DNA of 64,000 bases from Acidobacteriota bacterium (lineage in GTDB: Bacteria; Acidobacteriota; Thermoanaerobaculia; UBA5066; Gp7-AA6), in contig DAHUXD010000003.1 in the NCBI GenBank assembly GCA_027307335.1, positions 62,001 to 126,000 on the forward strand. The letters are read 5' to 3'. A program made the position numbers and the translations under genes. A model generated the notes under the pieces. It was not told the origin of the DNA. It searched no databases and saw only the letters and a list, made by a program, of their open reading frames with translations. Within the stretch, counting starts at the first letter, position 1. The number at the start of each line of letters is the position of its first letter. This document shows positions 42,864-43,311 of this stretch, in pieces.

Positions 42864-42892
42864 TTGACTTGCAACGGGCGGATCGCCACAAT
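42864..42892 (+). promoter_or_regulatory. Strong predicted promoter of the Lys-rich peptide unit
   Basis: TTGACT (42864-42869), exactly 17 bases, then CACAAT (42887-42892). The predicted start near 42899 leaves a leader of about 220 bases before the small ORF at 43121. Confidence 0.6.
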
Positions 42893-42898
42893 GAAGTC

Positions 42899-43120
42899 AA
42901 GTGCTAAGTTCGCTGGGAAGCTCGTTCGACGGAAAGCACATCGACGCGGAAAAAGAAATCGCCGGATGGGTGGTCGCCCATCCGGCGAAAAAGCAAGAAC
43001 GTATGACCCATCAATCGTTCGGCAGCGGCAGACTGAAGGCGATACGCCCTTTAGCGGGGGCGCAAAAAGTAGCACCTCGCCCGCAGGCTGTCAATTGGCT
43101 GTCGGGAGGGAGGTGACGTA
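42899..43120 (+). ncRNA. Candidate structured leader or small RNA
   Basis: No gene in this stretch has host-like codon use. It contains a very stable 11-bp hairpin (42959-42986, CGCCGGATGGG with CCCATCCGGCG) flanked by A-rich runs. The segment AAGTGCT near its 5' end (42899-42905) is complementary to AGCACTT at 43186-43192, beyond the small ORF. A transcript from the promoter at 42864 to the terminator at 43214 could therefore close on itself. It resembles neither tmRNA nor 6S RNA closely enough to name. Confidence 0.4.
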
Positions 43121-43180
43121 ATGGCCACGAAGAAGAAGGCGGCGAAGAAGGCGAAGAAGGCGACCAAGAAGAAGAAGTAA
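43121..43180 (+). CDS. 19-residue lysine/alanine-rich peptide
   Basis: MATKKKAAKKAKKATKKKK is the whole product: 12 lysines in 19 residues, the rest Ala, Thr and Met. A near-perfect ribosome site, GGGAGGGAGGTGA, stands 4-8 bases before the ATG. A consensus promoter lies upstream and a strong terminator 34 bases downstream, which together support real expression. The composition resembles the tails of histone H1-like and other DNA- or RNA-binding proteins, so nucleic-acid or ribosome contact is a reasonable inference. No specific family is claimed. The lysine codons are all AAG. Confidence 0.6.
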   Translation: MATKKKAAKKAKKATKKKK

Positions 43181-43213
43181 GTCAAGCACTTACAGCTTCG
43201 AACACGGTTTCTC

Positions 43214-43238
43214 GGGGGCCTGCGGGCCCCCTTTTTTT
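43214..43238 (+). terminator. Rho-independent terminator after the Lys-rich peptide
   Basis: GGGGGCC (43214-43220) pairs with GGCCCCC (43225-43231) around a four-base loop, followed by seven T. Confidence 0.92.
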
Positions 43239-43291
43239 GTCCCCAAACGGGGACGCCTTCTGCCTCCGGGAACACCGCGATTCGGGCCCAG

Positions 43292-43311
43292 CTATATCGC
43301 TATTGATATAG
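43292..43311. promoter_or_regulatory. Palindromic operator of the second PadR gene
   Basis: CTATATC, six bases, then GATATAG form a perfect 7+7 inverted repeat that stands out in GC-rich DNA. The overlapping TATAGT (43307-43312) is a likely -10, ending 7 bases before the ATG at 43320. Binding of the regulator here would block its own transcription. Confidence 0.7.

Follow-up and report, generated by a model that had tools for sequence, protein, structure and literature searches.

The window analysed here, a 64,000-nucleotide stretch of an Acidobacteriota contig (GenBank DAHUXD010000003.1), harbors a very small gene that annotation missed. Its open reading frame (ORF), MATKKKAAKKAKKATKKKK, occupies positions 43121–43180 of the plus strand and consists of 19 codons, 11 of which specify lysine (11/19, 58%). 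A perfect Shine-Dalgarno (SD) sequence, GGAGGTGA, is located on the same strand at 43109–43116, 4 nt before the ATG at 43121, and is identical in 15/15 members of the window's order. The micropeptide mRNA would end at a G+C-rich intrinsic terminator (43214–43238, plus strand), and a hairpin followed by a T-run is also found after the ORFs of relatives. The plus-strand promoter, TTGACT-17-CACAAT, lies at 42864–42892 and is the only promoter-like site in 3.4 kb, where 0.1 would be expected in shuffles; two members of the same family have TTGACA-18-GAGAAT and TTGACT-17-GAGAAT at the equivalent place. The promoter, the 19-residue ORF, the ideal ribosome site and the strong terminator had all been claimed in a preliminary description of this DNA and are confirmed here, while the lysine share, given there as 63%, is corrected. 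Judged by its sequence context, the ORF is very probably translated. The micropeptide has no match in Pfam or NCBIfam, and a literature search returned no description of the micropeptide/small-RNA locus. Gene callers, homology searches and most proteomics overlook low-complexity proteins of 19 residues.

To the left of the locus lies the menaquinone gene mqnA/D (PF02621; 41964–42806, minus strand) and to its right a PadR gene. This arrangement is retained in the order, with mqnA/D on the left and on the minus strand in 15/15 loci and PadR on the right and on the plus strand in all except the truncated L062. The copy in genome G015 is also accompanied by mqnA/D. Before the PadR gene of the window, at 43291–43310, there is a CTATATC-N7-GATATAG palindrome that is kept in families f1 and f3 and is likely the PadR operator and promoter.

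Distribution and composition of the micropeptide

Sequence comparison establishes that the ORF is conserved. It was found at 16 loci in the three families of the window's order (f1, f2 and f3), at 10 loci in f8, which is a fourth family of the same class, and at 5 loci in other Acidobacteriota classes. Every conserved locus combines a strong ribosome site with an 18–28-residue product made up nearly entirely of Lys and Ala together with Thr, Ser, Pro and Gly. At the nucleotide level, a search of 61 related genomes showed that two members of the same family carry homologues with 78–80% identity over ~290 bases, and that partial homologues exist in the order. The class was searched with a pattern consisting of the SD, a start codon and two lysines, which gave one genuine match per genome in f1, f2, f3 and f8; matches elsewhere in the class were unrelated ORFs and were rejected. 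An order-specific pattern run over 84,980 species genomes produced 13 matches, 12 in Acidobacteriota records, one named Thermoanaerobaculia; a match in Magasanikbacteria was discarded as a longer lysine-rich protein. Finally, a stricter lysine pattern applied to 396 genomes of the phylum located the gene in three families that belong to other classes (G257, G280, G294, G315 and G404). These genes encode peptides such as MATKKKAAKKTAKKKAAKK and have a strong promoter ~90 nt upstream, an SD and a terminator. The promoter reads TTGACA-16-TATATT in four of the five, and the fifth, G257, has TTGACA and CATATT. Thus, the search for the peptide in related genomes that had been proposed as a check recovered the gene, one per genome in the order and f8 and also in other classes, and these comparative data support the view of a self-contained micropeptide gene overlooked by annotation. 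Strong expression signals accompany the micropeptide in more than one class of this major soil phylum.

The 24 complete ORFs of the order and f8 encode 18–25 aa, with hardly any residues other than K, A, T, S, P and G (K 257 and A 136 in total, followed by T, S, P and G). Among near relatives in f2 the ORF differences are mostly synonymous, for example 4 synonymous to 1 other, and the ORFs of f8 pairs are more variable than these. Because of this restricted residue usage and pattern of change, the micropeptide appears to be selected for composition and charge, not for sequence. As separate observations, seven of the 10 f8 loci (L023, L031, L033, L035, L036, L037 and L039) contain a possible upstream ORF (uORF) of 50–53 aa, located between ~175 and 15 nt upstream of the lysine ORF, with the sequence M(M)IARNW...VEGR...ATVRSRTA-stop or close variants and an end ~15 nt before the micropeptide start. 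The 3′ UTRs carry conserved, family-specific words before the terminator, TTTCCGGGATNCGGGGGC in f2, TTTTGGGGAGTCGTA in f8 and ATMTCAGGGG in the other classes.

A promoter, hairpin and terminator on the minus strand

Within the order the leader is better conserved than the ORF, and its top words are TAGCAC and TGTCAATC. Read on the minus strand, these words form a TTGACA-17/18-TAnnTT promoter with an extended −10. In the window this promoter (43066–43094, minus strand) consists of the −35 element TTGACA (43094–43089), a 17 nt spacer and the extended −10 element TACTTT (43071–43066). Sequence comparison leaves TTGACA and TGC-TAnnTT exact in 15/15 loci, with a spacing of 17 in f1 and f3 and 18 in f2, at a position 26–32 nt before the micropeptide start codon; the same word pair is carried by G015. 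The preliminary description missed this perfectly conserved promoter inside what it called the leader. Elsewhere in the class the pattern also occurs at promoter-like spacing, which would be expected of a generic promoter. Similarly, matches to TAGCA-N-TGTCAATY in other genomes cluster at 26–31 bases in total and were set aside as generic reverse promoters.

The RNA predicted to start at this promoter is ~105 nt long (42952–43060, minus strand) and forms a long irregular hairpin with a conserved CUGYCGCUGCCG apex, followed by an intrinsic terminator (42950–42988, minus strand). Across the loci it measures ~105–150 nt from the minus promoter to a hairpin and T-run. The terminator hairpin of the window (42959–42988, 12 pairs) had been described as an 11-bp hairpin of the plus-strand leader; the hairpin is real, but because its T-run lies on the minus strand it is a minus-strand terminator. 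When both strands were folded freely, the minus RNA was lower in energy in 15/15 loci, with a mean difference of 8.3 kcal/mol and z values of −1.5 to −5.7. Free folding was used in place of a GU-against-AC strand test, which was dropped because the structures counted came from the strand tested. What looks like a structured leader on the plus strand can thus reflect a small RNA gene encoded opposite to it, which comparison of the folding energies of both strands exposed.

Comparison across families gives further evidence for the minus-strand terminator. In the f2 alignment, 5/12 of its pairs are changed on both sides, 98.3% of the cells are paired and the covariation score was reached in 0/500 shuffles; the small-RNA body in f1 and f3 shows weak covariation (5 sequences). 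A covariance model built from f1 and f3 only (R2) retrieves the f2 members L061, L062 and L067 at the same place (E 7.5e-5 to 2e-3), with one copy per genome and none elsewhere in the class. The reciprocal model from f2 only (R1) retrieves all f1 and f3 loci, with a single weak extra match in G014 (E 0.14). A leader aptamer serving many genes was rejected, R1 finding one locus per genome and always at the micropeptide. Rfam contains no match to the small RNA. A hit to PhrS (E 0.0018) was rejected as it falls under the gathering score of that model and rests on the lysine codons, and the window contains no match to the 6S RNA model (RF00013). On a separate point, G000, the genome of the window, has no Rfam 6S match genome-wide, and that model matches only 5/14 control genomes; the 6S RNA of this lineage is either lost or unrecognised. 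Taken on sequence grounds, the minus strand probably carries an unannotated small RNA gene whose RNA is made. Without an Rfam entry, it would be among the few regulatory RNAs proposed for Acidobacteriota.

Several structural proposals of the preliminary description can be reassessed against these data. Covariance modelling of homologues, which it recommended, yielded covariation in the minus terminator and models that detect each other's families, but the pairing it placed at the leader ends was not conserved. This pairing, AAGTGCT with AGCACTT, folds only if the RNA is cut exactly there; the full-length transcript folds without it, the two nearest relatives have nothing equivalent, and a closed RNA with paired ends was therefore rejected as a cutting artefact. 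The suggestion of a dual-function RNA came near the mark, with the difference that there are two RNAs on opposite strands, not one. A lysine sensor does not fit, since the ORF has a terminator of its own and is not followed by a lysine gene. Attenuation by a lysine-rich leader peptide was likewise rejected, the downstream gene being PadR and not a lysine-related operon, and PadR being absent from the f8 loci.

Overlap of the two transcripts and rival readings

In 14/15 loci a proximal plus promoter, TTGnnn-16-TACAAT/TAAAAT, is located just beyond the minus terminator, and by position the two transcripts must therefore overlap if both are made. The proximal promoter is degenerate in the window, so that the promoter at 42864 must serve. 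With either plus promoter, the mRNA leader includes the complement of the whole small RNA. In f2 loci L061–L070, a palindrome, TCAAGAA-N5-TTCTTGA, is present ~200–230 nt before the ORF and in most cases shares bases with the −35 element of the plus promoter; it is a possible operator.

Our preferred reading, which we put at about even chances, is that two overlapping genes lie on opposite strands and that the antisense RNA adjusts how much of a polycationic micropeptide is produced. The plus strand would produce a short mRNA with a leader of ~160–220 nt, encoding a Lys/Ala micropeptide of 18–25 aa in the order and the sister family and of up to 28 aa elsewhere in Acidobacteriota. From the minus strand, a strong promoter ~30 nt before the micropeptide start codon would drive a structured small RNA of ~105–150 nt that ends at its own terminator, adjoining the plus-strand promoter. 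This RNA would be the full complement of most of the mRNA leader, and its complementarity would stop short of the SD and the ORF. We infer that the two RNAs are made and meet, and that their pairing, to which the conserved apical loop CUGCCG would contribute, would act with the collision of convergent transcription to lower micropeptide output. The case that the small RNA regulates the micropeptide is evenly balanced, and repression as the direction of that regulation is proposed tentatively. The micropeptide itself may be an abundant polycation with nucleic acid or some other polyanion as its binding partner, and a nucleoid- or ribosome-binding role is possible.

A possible plus-strand helix, CGGCAGC/GCUGTCG (43021–43103), closes an element of the leader that ends just before the SD. 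The two sides of the helix differ in a coordinated way between families, which have CGGCAGC/GCUGUCG in f1, GGCAG/CUGCC in f2 and CGGUAGU/ACUACCG in f3, and the element is lower in energy on the plus than on the minus strand in 12/15 loci. The 5′ strand of the helix is complementary to the apical loop of the small RNA, a hint that the small RNA may compete for the helix. The predicted accessibility of the SD has a mean of 0.30 both with and without bound small RNA, and thus no simple switch is seen. Sequestration of the SD by CACCUC, which only L058 and L059 showed when folded and f2 did not, was rejected, as was a mok-like leader ORF, leader uORFs not being conserved in f1–f3.

The main rival, which we regard as unlikely, holds that the minus RNA is the terminator-containing 5′ leader, an attenuator or riboswitch, of mqnA/D and that it overlaps the micropeptide mRNA only by chance. 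The constant position of mqnA/D downstream on the minus strand, and beside the G015 copy, favors this explanation, as does the order of elements ahead of a biosynthetic gene (a conserved promoter, a structured RNA, a terminator), which is usual for attenuators. Moreover, G008 (f2), the only well-assembled order member that lacks the micropeptide and the small RNA, also lacks mqnA/D. However, mqnA/D genes at 14 loci of sister families have no such leader, no terminator and no lysine ORF nearby, the leader being present in the order only, and the f8 loci keep the micropeptide without mqnA/D, PadR or the minus promoter. On this comparison the micropeptide and the small RNA are separable, the small RNA being an addition of the window's order, which weakens the attenuator explanation. 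In addition, the gap from the minus terminator to mqnA/D varies from ~67 to 222 nt and holds the conserved plus promoter, and no alternative antiterminator pairing was seen in f1 by eye.

The small RNA might instead act in trans on other mRNAs, with the micropeptide gene merely a neighbor on the same DNA. Such a role would suit a gene that stands by itself, with a promoter and terminator of its own and a conserved sequence in its loop, but the small-RNA locus was never found apart from the micropeptide, and the plus promoter forces the transcripts to overlap in 14/15 loci; we consider this explanation rather improbable. Still less probable is an ordinary, highly expressed gene for a small basic protein, accompanied by non-functional minus-strand signals. 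This would fit the other classes, which have just a promoter of the TTGACA-TATATT type ~90 nt upstream, an SD, the ORF and a terminator, but not the exact conservation of the minus promoter or the covariation in the minus terminator.

Comparison with known regulatory systems

In hok/sok and ldr/rdl, the complementarity of the antisense RNA is to a long 5′ UTR and spares the ribosome site (PMC4147584). The locus resembles these systems in having a small-protein mRNA with a long 5′ UTR and an antisense promoter inside the sense leader. It differs in that its product is cationic and hydrophilic, whereas theirs is a hydrophobic membrane peptide, in that it has no conserved leader ORF and is a single copy at a fixed position, and in that f8 and the other classes keep the peptide but lack the antisense promoter. 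Among the features of type I toxin-antitoxin loci, an mRNA for a protein of <60 aa is present (18–25 aa, with conserved SD and terminator), and at the sequence level a complementary antisense RNA with its own promoter is found in 15/15 loci. The composition of the 24 ORFs is not that of a hydrophobic, membrane-active peptide. For this reason, and because the peptide persists without the antisense promoter, we do not class the locus as a toxin-antitoxin system, and an obligate pair is unlikely.

Plasmid copy control by antisense RNAs is exemplified by CopA/CopT and RNAI/RNAII. Convergent promoters and a loop-bearing antisense RNA that covers the leader are shared with these systems, but the locus described here is chromosomal, and what it is proposed to control is a micropeptide rather than replication. 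Terminator-type riboswitches and attenuators have in common with the minus strand a promoter, a structured RNA and an intrinsic terminator before a biosynthetic gene, here mqnA/D; unlike them, the small RNA has no Rfam match and is absent from the mqnA/D genes of sister families, and inspection by eye in f1 showed no antiterminator.

HU and histone-H1-like bacterial proteins have lysine-rich tails with a KKAAKK-type composition. The micropeptide shares this composition, but here the tail-like peptide, which matches no Pfam or NCBIfam family, is the whole product. We offer as speculation, against the odds, that the widespread polylysine-like peptides of 18–28 residues in Acidobacteriota are free cationic regulators of the nucleoid, the ribosome or polyphosphate, to which one order added a dedicated antisense RNA, its target being a soluble polycation and not a membrane toxin.
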